Source of the DNA: Natronoarchaeum philippinense | GTDB lineage: Archaea > Halobacteriota > Halobacteria > Halobacteriales > Natronoarchaeaceae | Assembly: GCF_900215575.1 (NCBI RefSeq) | Contig: NZ_OBEJ01000003.1 | Coordinates: 372,001 to 436,000 of the forward strand | DNA length: 64,000 bases | Reading direction: 5' to 3' | Part shown: positions 44,565-56,861 of the stretch, in pieces | Position numbering within the stretch: the stretch's first letter is position 1 | Layout of the letters: each line of letters starts with the position of its first letter | Notes under the pieces: generated by a model | Seen by the model: only the letters and a program-made list of their open reading frames with translations | The model's database searches: none | What the model was told of the DNA's origin: nothing | Program-made: the position numbers and the translations under genes

Positions 44565-45089
44565 ATGGCAAACGACGAGCTCATCGCGGCCCTGCGAGAC
44601 GCCGACGCCGTCCAGTACGGAGAGTTCGAGCTCTCCCACGGCGGCACCAGCGAGTACTACGTGGACAAGTACCTCTTCGAGACCGACCCCCACTGTCTCG
44701 GCCTGATCGCCGAGGCGTTCGCCGAGCGCCTCGACGACGACAAGCTGGCGGGCGTCGCGCTCGGCGCCGTCCCGCTGGTCGCGGTCACCAGCGTCGAGAC
44801 GGAACTGCCCTACGTCATCGCGCGCAAGCAAAAGAAGGAGTACGGCACCGCGAACCTGATCGAGGGCGAACTCGAAGAGGGCGAGGAGGTCGTCGTCCTC
44901 GAAGACATCGCCACCACCGGCCAGAGCGCCGTCGACGCCGTCGAGGCGCTGCGCGAGGCCGGCGCGGAGGTCAATCGCGCGCTCGTCGTCGTCGACCGAC
45001 AGGAGGGCGGCGCGGAGAACCTCGCCGAGGTCGACGTGGAACTGGAGTCGCTGGTCACCGCCGAGGACCTGCTCGCGGACGACCAGTAA
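44565..45089 (+). CDS. pyrE: Orotate phosphoribosyltransferase
   Basis: The 174-residue protein has the PRPP loop [19 protein letters not shown] and the flexible-loop lysines of [16 protein letters not shown], both typical of OPRTase. The N-terminus reads [22 protein letters not shown], with the substrate motif seen in archaeal PyrE. It makes OMP from orotate and PRPP in pyrimidine synthesis. The ATG lies 27 bases after a TATA box, so the mRNA should be leaderless. No other pyr gene is adjacent. Confidence 0.92.
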
Positions 45090-45118
45090 ACGACCCATAC
45101 CTACCGAGTAGCGGCCGG

Positions 45119-45125
45119 ATTACTA
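45119..45125 (+). promoter_or_regulatory. TATA-like element before the tRNA-like gene
   Basis: ATTACTA lies 29-35 bases upstream of the first base of the tRNA-Gly-like gene, the spacing of haloarchaeal tRNA promoters. The match is weak. Confidence 0.3.
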
Positions 45126-45153
45126 CACGCCACGTCGCCGTAGCTCGGTTTGC

Positions 45154-45225
45154 GCGATGGTGGTGTAGCAGCGAACACACGGTCCCTCCAGGACCGGAAC
45201 GCAGGTGCGAGTCCTGCCCATCGCA
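45154..45225 (+). tRNA. tRNA-Gly(UCC)-like gene with altered invariant loop bases
   Basis: All four arms pair perfectly: acceptor GCGATGG/CCATCGC with discriminator A, D arm GTGT/ACAC, anticodon arm CGGTC/GACCG, T arm GCAGG/CCTGC. The 5' part GCGATGGTGGTGTAG matches haloarchaeal tRNA-Gly. The anticodon would be UCC. However, the D loop AGCAGCGA lacks the GG pair, position 33 is C instead of U (loop CCTCCAG), and the T loop TGCGAGT has G at position 55. U8, A14, G15-C48, C56 and A58 are kept. It may be a normal but divergent tRNA, a tRNA with a special role, or a decaying copy with intact stems. Confidence 0.6.
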
Positions 45226-45404
45226 TCGCTCTCCCGCGGACCGTGCCGGGTACCGGTTCGCAACGCTTTTGCTGTCGCCTCCAGTACGGGCAGGTACAGA
45301 TGGCAGGTGTCTGCTTTACATCGGGTGCTGCCCCTTCCTACTCCCGTGTGTAGACGCCTGCCCGTTTTCCCGCTGGCAACCCCTGGCCAGCCGGAGGTAT
45401 ATCA
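45226..45404 (+). promoter_or_regulatory. Structured leader of thrS with terminator-like hairpin and SD
   Basis: CGGGCAGG (45287-45294) pairs perfectly with CCTGCCCG (45357-45364), which is followed at once by TTTT. Inside are GTCT/AGAC (45309-45312, 45352-45355) and CGGG/CCCG (45322-45325, 45343-45346). A second hairpin GCTGGC/GCCAGC (45372-45377, 45386-45391) ends one base before GGAGGT (45393-45398), the ribosome binding site seven bases before the thrS ATG. This looks like an attenuator-type leader, an unusual design for a haloarchaeon where leaderless mRNAs prevail. Confidence 0.5.
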
Positions 45405-47354
45405 ATGTCACAGGACGCAGATTCCCAGGATCAGATCGTAGTAGTGCTCCCCGACGGCTCCGAGCTCGACGTTCCGCGCGGGGCGACGCTCGAAGATGTC
45501 GCCTTCGAGATCGGCCCCGGCCTCGGTCGGGACACCGCCGGCGGCCGGATCGACGGCGAACTCGTCGGCAAGGAAGTCCCCGTCACCGAGGACGGCGCCG
45601 AGATCGAACTCGTCACGGAAGACAGCGACGAGTACGTCCGCGTGCTGCGCCACACCGCTTCGCACTGTCTCGCGCAGGCTGTCCAGCGGCTCTACGACGA
45701 TGTGGAACTCGCTATCGGGCCGCCGACCGACGACGGCTTCTACTACGACTTCGACGATCTCGACATCGACGAAGACGATCTGGAAGACATCCTCGCGGAG
45801 ATGGAGGAGATCATCGACGCCGACTACGAGGTCGAGTACGAACAGGTCTCGATCGAGGAAGCCCGCGAGCGCCTGCAGGGCCAGCCCTACAAGCTCGAAC
45901 TCTTGGAGGAACTCGCCGAGGAGGGCGAGACCGTCTCCTTCTACAGTCAGGGCGAGTGGGAGGACCTCTGTAAGGGCCCCCACGTCGACTCGACGGGCGA
46001 GATCGGCGCCGTCGACCTGCTGGAGATCGCCGCCGCGTACTGGCGCGGCGACGAGGAGAACCCGATGCAGACCCGGATCTACGGCACCGCCTTCGAGTCC
46101 CAAGAGGATCTGGAGGCGTTCAAGGAGCGACGCCGCGAGGCCGAGCGCCGCGACCACCGGAAGATCGGTTCCGAGATGGACCTGTTCTCGATCCAGGATG
46201 TCACCGGTCCCGGTCTCCCTCTGTATCACCCCGCGGGCAAGACTATCCTCCGCGAGCTGGAGTCGTTCGTCGAGTCGCTCAACCTCGACGCCGGCTACGA
46301 GTACGTCGAGACGCCCCACGTGTTCAAGACCGACCTCTGGAAGGAGAGCGGTCACTACGAGAACTATCAGGACGACATGTTCGTCTTCGACGTCGACGAC
46401 GACGAGTACGGGCTCAAGCCGATGAACTGCCCGGGCCACGCGACGATCTTCGACGACAGCTCGTGGTCGTATCGTGACCTGCCGATGCGCTACGCCGAGA
46501 ACGGGAAGGTCTACCGAAAGGAACAGCGCGGCGAGCTCTCGGGCCTCTCACGCGTTTGGGCCTTTACGATCGACGACGGTCACCTGTTCGTCCGCCCGGA
46601 CCAGATCGAGCGCGAGGTCGAACAGACGATGGACATGATCGACGAGGTGCTCTCGACGTTCGATCTGGACTACGACGTTGCGCTGGCGACCCGCCCCGAG
46701 AAGAGCGTCGGCTCCGACGAGATCTGGGAGCGCGCCGAGTCTCAGCTCCGTGACGTGCTCGACCGCCGGAACCTCGACTACGAGGTCGAGGAGGGCGACG
46801 GCGCCTTCTACGGCCCGAAGATCGACTTCGGCTTCGAGGACGCCATCGGACGCCACTGGGACGGCCCCACGGTCCAACTGGACTTCAACATGCCCGAGCG
46901 CTTCGACCTGAGCTACGTCGGCGAGGACAACGAGTCCCACAAGCCGGTGATGATCCACCGCGCGCTGTACGGCAGCTACGAGCGCTTCTTTATGGTGTTG
47001 ATCGAGCACTACGCCGGCAACTTCCCGCTCTGGCTCGCCCCCGAGCAGGTCCGCGTGCTGCCGATCAGCGACGACAACCTCGGCTACGCCCACCGCGTCA
47101 AAAACGAGTTCGACGAGTTCCGCGTCGAGGTCGACGGCCGCGACTCGACGATCGAGCGCAAGATCCGGGCGGCCCACGAGGACCGCGTGCCGTACATGAT
47201 CGTCGTCGGCGACGACGAAGAGGAAGACGGCAACATCTCCGTGCGCGACCGCTTCGAGGACCAGGAGTACGACGTCGAGATCGACGCGTTCCGCGACCAC
47301 CTCCGGAGCGAGCGCTCGGAGAAACGGACCGAACCGGACTTCCTGCAGGATTGA
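45405..47354 (+). CDS. thrS: Threonyl-tRNA synthetase with TGS and editing domains
   Basis: The 649-residue protein has a TGS domain (about 10-70), an N2 editing domain with [15 protein letters not shown] (HxxxH) and [12 protein letters not shown], a class II catalytic core with [10 protein letters not shown] (a zinc-binding cysteine) and the C-terminal anticodon domain (about 540-640). The TGS-plus-N2 layout is the bacterial/eukaryal form, not the archaeal form with a DTD-like editing domain, so the gene was probably acquired by an ancestor from bacteria. It is preceded by a structured leader and a strong GGAGGT ribosome binding site. Confidence 0.94.
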
Positions 47355-54275: not shown

Positions 54276-56861
54276 TCAGTCGGCCGAAACCGGCTGCGTA
54301 GGCGTCGACGATTCGGTCTGTTCGGATTCCCACTCCAGCTCGCCCCGGTAGTGGAACACGGCGTCCCCCCGCTCGGGATCCAGTACGCTCAGCTTCAGCC
54401 ACTCGTTGTCGAACAGCTCCCGGAGCCCGTCGTTGCGCTCCAGAATGGCCTCGACGCGCTCGACCGGCGCCTGCAGCAGCGTCGTCGGACGCAGCGGGGA
54501 GTGGTAGGCCGCCCCGTCGTCGTCGTGGAGCGACTGGAAGGGCAGCCCCATCCGCAGGTCGCCGCCGTTGCCTTGGTAGACGCCGATCTTCCCGACGGGG
54601 TTGTGCGTGACTTTCGTGCCGCTGCCGTACACGTCGTTGTCGACCGTCGAGAAGTAGTACTGCGCGCTGATCATCTGGACGACGACCAGCGGGCCGACGA
54701 GGATGTTCTCTAGGGCCTCTCCATCGGGATCGGTCGCCCAGTCGTAGGTGTGGAGGAACGCGCGGCCGTCGAGGTCGACGCCGCTGGTCAGTTCGCGCCG
54801 TCCGACGACGAACCCGGCGTTGCCAGAGAGTCCGATCTCCGGGCGTGGCTCGGCCCAGTCGGCCGCCCGGCGCTCGGTCTCCCGGACGGGATCGCTCGGC
54901 TCGGCGCCGTCGATCGTTTCGATGCGCTCGGCGGCGGCGCCGCCCCGAGCAGTTTCGAGATCGCGCTCCAATCGTTCGAACGTCTCGGCACGCTCGGCCC
55001 GAAGGTCATCGTCCGCAAAGAGCGTAATCTCGTCGGTGGTGGTGTCGTGCTCGGCGGCGACGAAGACCGTCTCGTCGGGAATCTCGATCCCGCGTTCGGC
55101 GAGTTGCGACCGCACCGCCGGCTCGTTGCAGATCGACGCCAGCGTCCGGGCGTTCGGGACGCCGGAGCTACCCGCGCAGGCGCCACAGTCGATGCTCGAT
55201 TTGTAGGGGTTGTTGACGGTCTGGCTGGCGTGGCCCGCGAAGACGACCAGCGGGGCGAACTCGTCCCACCCCATCAGGTCGAACGCCGCCTCGGCGTAGA
55301 ACGCCTGCTGCTCGGTCGAGATGCCACGGGGGAGCCCGTCGGCTTCGACCTGTAAGTGCTCGCCGGCGTCCCCTCGGACGGTCTCATCGGGGGCGTCCCC
55401 TCCGGCCGGTCCGACCTCTGCGTCGGCGTCGTCGGCGTCCGGCGGGTCGACGGCGGGCTCGCAAAACTCCGGCTCGTCCGGCGATCCCGCGCCGTCGCGC
55501 AGGTCGTACATCGACGAGGGAAGCAGGGTCCGCGCGGCCAGCGCTGCGCCGAAGAAACCACCGGCGCCCTCGACGAAGCCGAACGCGCCGGCAACGTCGT
55601 TCTTGAGCGACTTCATCAGCTTGTGACCCGCGTGGGACAAGTCGTGCCATCGGTCGTGGCGCTCGGCCTCGCCGTCGGCCGTCGCGCGCTCGTCGATCCG
55701 GTGTTTCGGTTCCGCGATCACCGGACAGGAGTCGGTCGAGACGTGCTCGCCGTACCCCTCGTGACGGATCGGCACGCCGAAGAAGCCGGCGTATCCGTGG
55801 GTCTCGTAGGGGCCGGTGGCTTCGAGATGCCGGCGGATGATCTCCGAACGGGTGTCGATGCAGAACACGAACTGGGCGGCGGGGCCGTCGCTCGTTGCTC
55901 CGGTCCCCGCGTCGGCGTCGCCAGCGGTGTTTGCCTCCGCCTCGACGTTGTCCGGGTGCTGTGCTTCCGCGTCTTCGGATGCCCTGACGGCGTCGACGAG
56001 TTCCTGCCGGTAGCTCTCCTCCCACGCGTCCAGCCACACCGCGGCCGGGGGCCGGTCCTCGACGGCGTCCGAACGGCGCTCGCCCTGCGGCGCGATCGGC
56101 TCGCCGAGATGTTTGGCGAGGATCAGGCGGGCGGCGAGGTAGTCGATCAGCGTGATCGGGTAGGCGTCCTGCCACGGGTTGTTGTCGTCGCCCTCGCGCT
56201 GTTTGATCAGGCCGGTCCAGCCCGGCAGCGCCGCCAGATGGTGCTCGAATGTGGCTTCCCACCGCTCTTCGGGAACGTCCGCGAGGGCGACGTACAGCGC
56301 CTCCATCGCGGTGTCGGGTAGGTCGGTCAGTCGATCGCGATAGAACTCCCCGACCGGCGTGGTCGCGGCCGGAATCTCGTCGTCGTACGGCGCCAACTCG
56401 CGCCAGGCCTCGTAGAACCCCCGTTCCCGATTCGGCATGGCCCACGCCGTCTCGCCTTGATCGAGGAAGGCGGCGAGCCACTTCGAAAGCAGTCGATCGA
56501 GCAGGTCGTCGGACGAGTTGTGCCCCTCGTCGGGCGTCTCCTCGTCCATCCGATCGAGCACGGTTTCGGGGTCGGCGTCGATACCGGCGTCGTCCAGTCG
56601 CTCGGTCAGTACGGTGGGATCGATCTCGCCGCGCTCCCAAGCGCGACGAAAGTACTCGGCGCTCGGGTACCCTTGGCCGCCGTAGAGCTCCTCGCCTTGG
56701 GCGACGGCGTCCTCGAAGGGGAGGTCCTCGAAACCGGCCAGTGGATTGGCCGCCACGTCCGCGTACAGCGGCCAGACCCGGCCGATGCTCTCGGCGGCGT
56801 TGTCGACTCGCGCGCGTACCGAGTTCGGATCCATGAACTCTGAGCGGTCAGTGTCTTCCAT
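54276..56861 (-). CDS. dabA: DabA: carbonic-anhydrase-like subunit of an inorganic-carbon pump (DUF2309)
   Basis: The 861-residue protein has the DUF2309 zinc site: C334 and D336 in FVFCIDTRSE and H544 and C559 in FAGHASQTVN...SIDCGAC. The spacings (2 and 15) equal those of Halothiobacillus DabA (C351, D353, H524, C539). The protein is cytoplasmic on the membrane and hydrates CO2 to bicarbonate one way, driven through DabB. Haloarchaeal acidic inserts (about 290-325 and 470-500) lengthen it. The start at 56861 or the ATG at 56834 (MDPNSVRARVD) is possible. Confidence 0.9.
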   Translation of the reverse strand: MEDTDRSEFMDPNSVRARVDNAAESIGRVWPLYADVAANPLAGFEDLPFEDAVAQGEELYGGQGYPSAEYFRRAWERGEIDPTVLTERLDDAGIDADPETVLDRMDEETPDEGHNSSDDLLDRLLSKWLAAFLDQGETAWAMPNRERGFYEAWRELAPYDDEIPAATTPVGEFYRDRLTDLPDTAMEALYVALADVPEERWEATFEHHLAALPGWTGLIKQREGDDNNPWQDAYPITLIDYLAARLILAKHLGEPIAPQGERRSDAVEDRPPAAVWLDAWEESYRQELVDAVRASEDAEAQHPDNVEAEANTAGDADAGTGATSDGPAAQFVFCIDTRSEIIRRHLEATGPYETHGYAGFFGVPIRHEGYGEHVSTDSCPVIAEPKHRIDERATADGEAERHDRWHDLSHAGHKLMKSLKNDVAGAFGFVEGAGGFFGAALAARTLLPSSMYDLRDGAGSPDEPEFCEPAVDPPDADDADAEVGPAGGDAPDETVRGDAGEHLQVEADGLPRGISTEQQAFYAEAAFDLMGWDEFAPLVVFAGHASQTVNNPYKSSIDCGACAGSSGVPNARTLASICNEPAVRSQLAERGIEIPDETVFVAAEHDTTTDEITLFADDDLRAERAETFERLERDLETARGGAAAERIETIDGAEPSDPVRETERRAADWAEPRPEIGLSGNAGFVVGRRELTSGVDLDGRAFLHTYDWATDPDGEALENILVGPLVVVQMISAQYYFSTVDNDVYGSGTKVTHNPVGKIGVYQGNGGDLRMGLPFQSLHDDDGAAYHSPLRPTTLLQAPVERVEAILERNDGLRELFDNEWLKLSVLDPERGDAVFHYRGELEWESEQTESSTPTQPVSAD

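Follow-up and report, generated by a model that had tools for sequence, protein, structure and literature searches.

An extra, deviant tRNA-Gly(UCC) gene lies at 45154-45225 on the forward strand of the window, by which we mean the whole stretch of 64,000 nucleotides analysed here. Judging from comparison with related sequences, the gene is under purifying selection and not in decay, and relatives of it exist in at least four further lineages of haloarchaea: Haloarcula pelagica, Natrinema, the genus g74 of family f7, and a genome of family f5 (G101). Its product may well be a glycylated tRNA that is kept off translation and acts apart from the ribosome, as glycyl donor or as signal. Somewhat more tentatively, we propose that haloarchaea evolved, independently of staphylococci, and shared horizontally a dedicated family of glycyl-donor tRNAs, which would be the first in Archaea.

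Bacteria are known to reserve some tRNAs for uses other than translation, chiefly the making of cell-wall peptides. In the open-access literature no isoacceptor set aside in this way turned up for Archaea. The preliminary description of the gene, made from the sequence, knew of no haloarchaeal parallel; a family of like design has now been found in this group.

A deviant gene beside ordinary tRNA-Gly genes

ARAGORN calls a tRNA-Gly(UCC) with boundaries at exactly 45154-45225 (+), and the CCA end is not encoded. The call is backed by the fold, by identity with a copy in the same genus and by a covariance model. From 5' to 3' the gene consists of the acceptor strand GCGATGG, TG, the D arm GTGT-AGCAGCGA-ACAC, a single A, the anticodon arm CGGTC-CCTCCAG-GACCG, GAAC, the T arm GCAGG-TGCGAGT-CCTGC, the acceptor strand CCATCGC and a final A. 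All four stems are paired throughout, as the preliminary description had claimed, and the minimum free energy structure is the cloverleaf, with a C32-G38 pair in addition to the anticodon stem (-32.7 kcal/mol, z -2.8).

The D loop AGCAGCGA (45167-45174, +) is without G18G19, and is best read as having G18 changed to A and G19 retained. The anticodon loop (45185-45191, +) is C32 C33 U34 C35 C36 A37 G38, where 32 and 38 form a Watson-Crick pair in the predicted fold. The T arm (45201-45217, +) has A51-U63 in its stem, and its loop is T-G55-CGAGT. The absence of the D-loop GG, C33 and G55, all three pointed out before, are thus seen in the sequence. The D-loop GG and U33 are both present in each of the 44 further distinct tRNA sequences examined from the window's own genome, G000 (haloarchaeal, 3.16 Mb in 11 contigs), and the window gene alone has a T loop that starts with T-G-C.

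The same genome has ordinary tRNA-Gly genes for UCC (L009), CCC (L003) and GCC (L014). The window gene is therefore not the only one for UCC but an extra, deviant isoacceptor, and the second UCC gene of the genome is an ordinary one. The two differ at positions 33 and 38; in the relatives from Natrinema and g74, position 32 differs from the ordinary UCC gene as well. At 51:63 a G-C pair is present in the genome's ordinary tRNA-Gly and in the ordinary copies listed for other carriers, while A51-U63 is found also in this genome's tRNA-Asn and in one tRNA-Leu. The Rfam tRNA model does not report the window gene even at E<=10, and gives two of its relatives 51-52 bits.

A second ARAGORN call in the window, a 94-nt tRNA-Pro(CGG) at 54839-54932, is without Rfam support and is probably a false positive within coding DNA.

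Conservation within the genus and the neighbouring genes

In the one other genome of the genus that was compared (G001) the gene lies in the same place, in the order pyrE, tRNA, thrS, and 68 of 72 bases are identical. Of the four changed positions, two belong to an acceptor pair that is compensated (U5-A68 to C5-G68) and two lie in the variable loop. The flanks are diverged: 13/22 bases are identical before the gene and 19/37 after it, the latter with 24 gap columns, and fourfold sites differ by 20% in pyrE and by 27% in thrS. Just beyond the 22 bases before the gene, the alignment of the two genomes has a conserved box, CATACCTACCGAGTAGCGGCCGGATTACTACACGCCA (45095-45131, +), with 31/33 identical bases at 45099-45131. 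It contains a TATA-like TTACTAC about 30 nt 5' of the tRNA gene and is the probable promoter.

Near-identity with a compensatory change between diverged flanks, together with the conserved box, argues that the gene is under purifying selection and very probably transcribed. The earlier claim of selection on the fold is accordingly borne out, and it extends to the odd loops. That the changes are unique to this strain, which would be a sign of decay, is ruled out by the G001 copy and by the relatives in further lineages.

Upstream of the gene lies a phosphoribosyltransferase, probably pyrE (44565-45089, +; Pfam PF00156), which is the neighbour in G001 as well. Downstream, thrS (45405-47354, +; from Pfam) has its own conserved leader at about 45296-45404, seen in a leader alignment. 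The position just before thrS had been noted and is correct, but it has no evident meaning: the relatives of the tRNA sit elsewhere, the thrS genes of other genera have no tRNA upstream, the leader element intervenes, and the tRNA has an upstream box of its own. A link to thrS, be it through the leader or as a tRNA mimic, was therefore dismissed.

The leader (window 45296-45404) is an observation in its own right. It is conserved in 17 of 30 haloarchaeal thrS loci (ATGG[CT]AGGTG..CTTTACA..), and can be read as an ORF of 13-18 aa, M[AV]G[VG]xFT.... Further, it has an inner hairpin and an outer arm, GG[CT]AGGTG opposite CACCT[GA]CC, with apparent covariation of C/T and G/A. It is without an Rfam match and is a candidate regulatory leader of threonyl-tRNA synthetase.

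A patchy family with a conserved anatomy

The first relative came from a blastn search of plasmid records: a Haloarcula pelagica plasmid carries a full-length one (80.6%), which led on to plasmid copies in Natrinema versiforme and N. zhouii. In a pattern scan of the 125 genomes of family f7, copies are found in four of the six genomes of genus g74 and in genus g9 (Natrinema), where G186 has three and G318 two; some of the copies have the anticodon GCC. With a covariance model built from four members, the members score 81-95 bits (92.4 for the window gene), compared with 58-67 for the ordinary Gly tRNAs of its genome, and the partly broken N. zhouii copy scores 62.8. Genome-scale searches with the model, which scored up to a set number of candidates in each genome at a high cut-off and may miss weaker members, covered 146 genomes of family f4, 170 of family f5 and 391 drawn evenly from the class, and added only H. 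pelagica (G431), G101 and G152. The relative in G101 lacks the GG and has one extra base in the T stem. From the searches for relatives, L112 was set aside as a chance match, L133 and L134 as ordinary tRNA-Gly(GCC), and H35 as a tRNA-Leu.

The exact D-loop pattern of the window gene is found in the two genus members only among 292 haloarchaeal genomes, and GTDB-wide it gave only bacterial chance matches. A pattern with a flexible D loop found the same two members among 391 genomes; it missed Natrinema and g74 because their anticodon-loop sequence differs. No match to a virus-borne copy was obtained in viral contigs, searched with exact patterns, or in phage records. Horizontal spread is suggested by the distribution of the family: only a few per cent of genomes carry a member, in a patchy pattern and in part on plasmids. 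Ordinary UCC genes are present in every other carrier checked except G101, where blastn found a CCC gene only, so that the relative may not be an extra copy there.

The relatives were aligned in 11 rows, a small number of related sequences. In this alignment 97.5% of cells are paired, while slid structures drop to 30-58%, and compensatory changes occur in 9 of 22 stem pairs. The covariation score, 0.360, exceeds that of shuffles (0.164), and none of 500 shuffles reaches it. These statistics support a selected fold, short of proof.

Common to all relatives are the loss of G18, a G-C or C-G pair at 32:38, a weak 51:63 pair, and C35, C36 and G3-C70. The 32:38 pair is C-G in three and G-C in eight of the 11, and 51:63 is A-U in eight and G-U in three. 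The D loops of the family are AGCAGCGA, AGCGTA and AGTAGAA; in each of them G18 can be read as lost, by change to A or by deletion, while the position of G19 still holds a G. Since C56 is invariant while position 55 is U or G, the alignment fits a loss of the 18-55 contact with the 19-56 contact retained. U8, A14, G15, C48, U54 and A58 are invariant. Of the three changes first described, the loss of GG thus extends to all relatives, while the other two are confined to some lineages: C33 is seen in the window genus and H. pelagica, G55 in the window genus, Natrinema and G101, and U33 and U55 are retained in several relatives.

N. versiforme (L094) and G186 (L115) share nearly the same upstream DNA and what looks like one plasmid locus, yet the first has U34 and the second G34 at the wobble position. 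As the wobble base drifts while C35 and C36 stay, the codon read does not appear to be what is conserved.

Could the genes be decaying tRNA copies? In the N. zhouii copy three acceptor pairs are broken and ARAGORN makes no call, and the extra T-stem base in G101 also points this way. In four g74 species, however, all 70 of 70 bases of the gene are the same and 52/60 upstream bases are invariant, against 92/240 further upstream, 27/60 just downstream and 67/240 downstream. A tRNA-Gly copy in G370 that does look decayed (GCGCGGGTAGTC..., L166/L172) has, by contrast, mismatched stems. With the compensatory changes and the conserved upstream boxes, these observations make a pseudogene origin very improbable, and for the window gene they contradict it.

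One extra tRNA-Gly(UCC) stands somewhat apart. In G152 (L126:1501-1571, minus strand, 1.2 kb from a tRNA-Gly(GCC)) the GG, U33 and U55 are retained, yet the G32-C38 pair and A51-U63 are present. It is a possible intermediate or forerunner toward the family without GG.

Glycine identity and a proposed role outside translation

For the archaeal tRNA-Gly of A. pernix the glycine determinants of GlyRS have been measured as C35, C36, C2-G71 and G3-C70, with A73 unneeded (PMC9976931). In the haloarchaeal family C35, C36 and G3-C70 are found in 11/11 relatives and C2-G71 in 9/11, with one compensated U2-A71 in g74; N73 is G in some Natrinema copies.

It should be considered whether the tRNA fold is merely borrowed, so that the RNA would donate no glycine but give rise to tRNA fragments, or else act as a regulator or as a decoy that binds, for instance, a modification enzyme or GlyRS. 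Fold and loops are selected, no user of the tRNA turned up, and the genes sit in unrelated genomic places, as such a role would allow. The retained C35, C36 and acceptor determinants, including the compensated U2-A71, fit charging instead, and G73 is harmless to this argument as the A. pernix enzyme has no need of A73. We regard a borrowed fold as improbable.

If, instead, the tRNA donates glycine or acts as a signal away from the ribosome, the steps may be the following. It would be transcribed from its own promoter in the conserved box, and charged by GlyRS through C35, C36, C2-G71 and G3-C70, all of which the window gene keeps. The loss of G18 would remove the 18-55 contact of the elbow, after which U55 may have changed to G in three lineages. 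The weak 51:63 pair of the T stem would lower binding of the elongation factor, a rule measured with bacterial EF-Tu and here carried over to aEF1A of the host; it should matter most for the weakly bound glycine. The 32:38 pair would narrow the anticodon loop, and U33 is also lost in two lineages. Together the three alterations would work against use by the ribosome, and the charged tRNA could build up, available to a tRNA-dependent, non-ribosomal reaction as a glycyl donor or a signal.

A precedent exists in Staphylococcus aureus, where three of five tRNA-Gly are non-proteogenic and act as donors for FemX, FemA and FemB in the pentaglycine bridges (PMC4052509). In the non-proteogenic tRNA-Gly of staphylococci the GG is lost, the strong EF-Tu pair G51-C63 is replaced by A51-U63, and 49:65 is A-U (PMC4052509). 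The window tRNA resembles them in being extra beside ordinary copies, in not keeping G18G19, in A51-U63 and in its intact fold. It differs in having G-C at 49:65, in the 32:38 pair of the haloarchaeal family and in the variable wobble base of its relatives. The S. epidermidis cell-wall tRNA-Gly reportedly has GUGC instead of GTPsiC, to which G55 would correspond. The loss of G18G19 and A51-U63 in the two groups are evidently convergent. The staphylococcal parallel drawn in the preliminary description therefore holds for the GG and also for A51-U63, which it had not mentioned; the cell-wall role is not to be taken literally, as FemAB (PF02388) has no match in G000 or G001.

That the window gene encodes a minor isoacceptor of the ordinary kind, which is charged and serves the ribosome with its odd loops tolerated, is a view to which we give little credence. 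tRNA-Pyl has a short D loop without G18G19, no TPsiC and a lengthened anticodon stem, and yet serves translation (PMC7609411). Loss of GG and a longer anticodon stem, both seen in the window tRNA together with an altered T loop, thus do not by themselves exclude translation; many mitochondrial tRNAs also function without GG, and the G152 copy with GG, U33 and U55 could be a forerunner. However, tRNA-Pyl has a CUA anticodon, a single base between acceptor and D stem and its own synthetase, whereas the window family has Gly anticodons (UCC or GCC) and Gly acceptor determinants. The ordinary UCC gene makes the window gene redundant, several independent changes all go toward poorer translation, and the wobble base is not conserved.

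A serious, though still unlikely, alternative is that the family provides a spare, translation-competent tRNA-Gly which resists a tRNA-cleaving toxin or defence nuclease through its anticodon loop (32, 33, 38) and is spread by plasmids or former mobile elements. Anticodon-loop changes in phage tRNAs have been proposed to resist host nucleases (PMC10264068). Like these, the haloarchaeal family is mobile and patchy with a changed anticodon loop: the loop is changed in all members, both UCC and GCC versions exist, and plasmids of H. pelagica, N. versiforme and N. zhouii carry copies. Unlike in the phage tRNAs, the body of the tRNA is changed too, and the copies lie on plasmids and chromosomes, with none found in viral collections. 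The D-loop and T-stem changes lie outside the anticodon loop and should cost translation, and decoding suffers where U33 is lost, as in two lineages.

The non-ribosomal reading is favoured by the coexistence of ordinary UCC, CCC and GCC genes in the own genome, and by the selection, the compensated pairs, the glycylation determinants, the weak 51:63 pair and the drifting wobble base. Against it stand the precedent of tRNA-Pyl, A51-U63 in tRNA-Asn and tRNA-Leu, and U33 and U55 in several relatives, as well as the lack of a FemAB match in the two genus genomes and of a neighbour gene common between genera.

Neighbour genes are syntenic only inside g74 and between the Natrinema loci. FemAB was discarded as the user, as PF02388 has no match in the two genus genomes and elsewhere gave weak partial matches only, in carriers and non-carriers alike. 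GNAT genes were dismissed as partners for being too common: one lies upstream in g74, and others are 6-7 kb from the tRNA in two plasmids. The N. versiforme plasmid pNVE500 has a complete EF-1 alpha gene (L094:22280-23551) about 10 kb from the odd tRNA, 90-91% identical to the chromosomal EF-1 alpha of G000 and G001. As a partner this paralogue was rejected, since it is absent from the other two plasmids and G000 and G001 have no second close EF-1 alpha.

If the proposal is true, the two changes also seen in staphylococci, G18 loss and A51-U63 with glycine identity kept, would amount to a convergent design rule, and would point to an undiscovered enzyme in haloarchaea that consumes Gly-tRNA. 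The signature could let tRNA finders flag such genes rather than call an extra tRNA-Gly.

Two other tRNA-like RNAs are seen in the own genome, L079 (G000:C4:60900-60979) and L085 (G000:C2:782996-783094). Both have an ordinary acceptor stem, D arm and T loop and are without an anticodon loop; the middle is a UUCG-capped stem with an extra hairpin in one and a long arm in the other, and the Rfam tRNA model gives them 48 and 44 bits.
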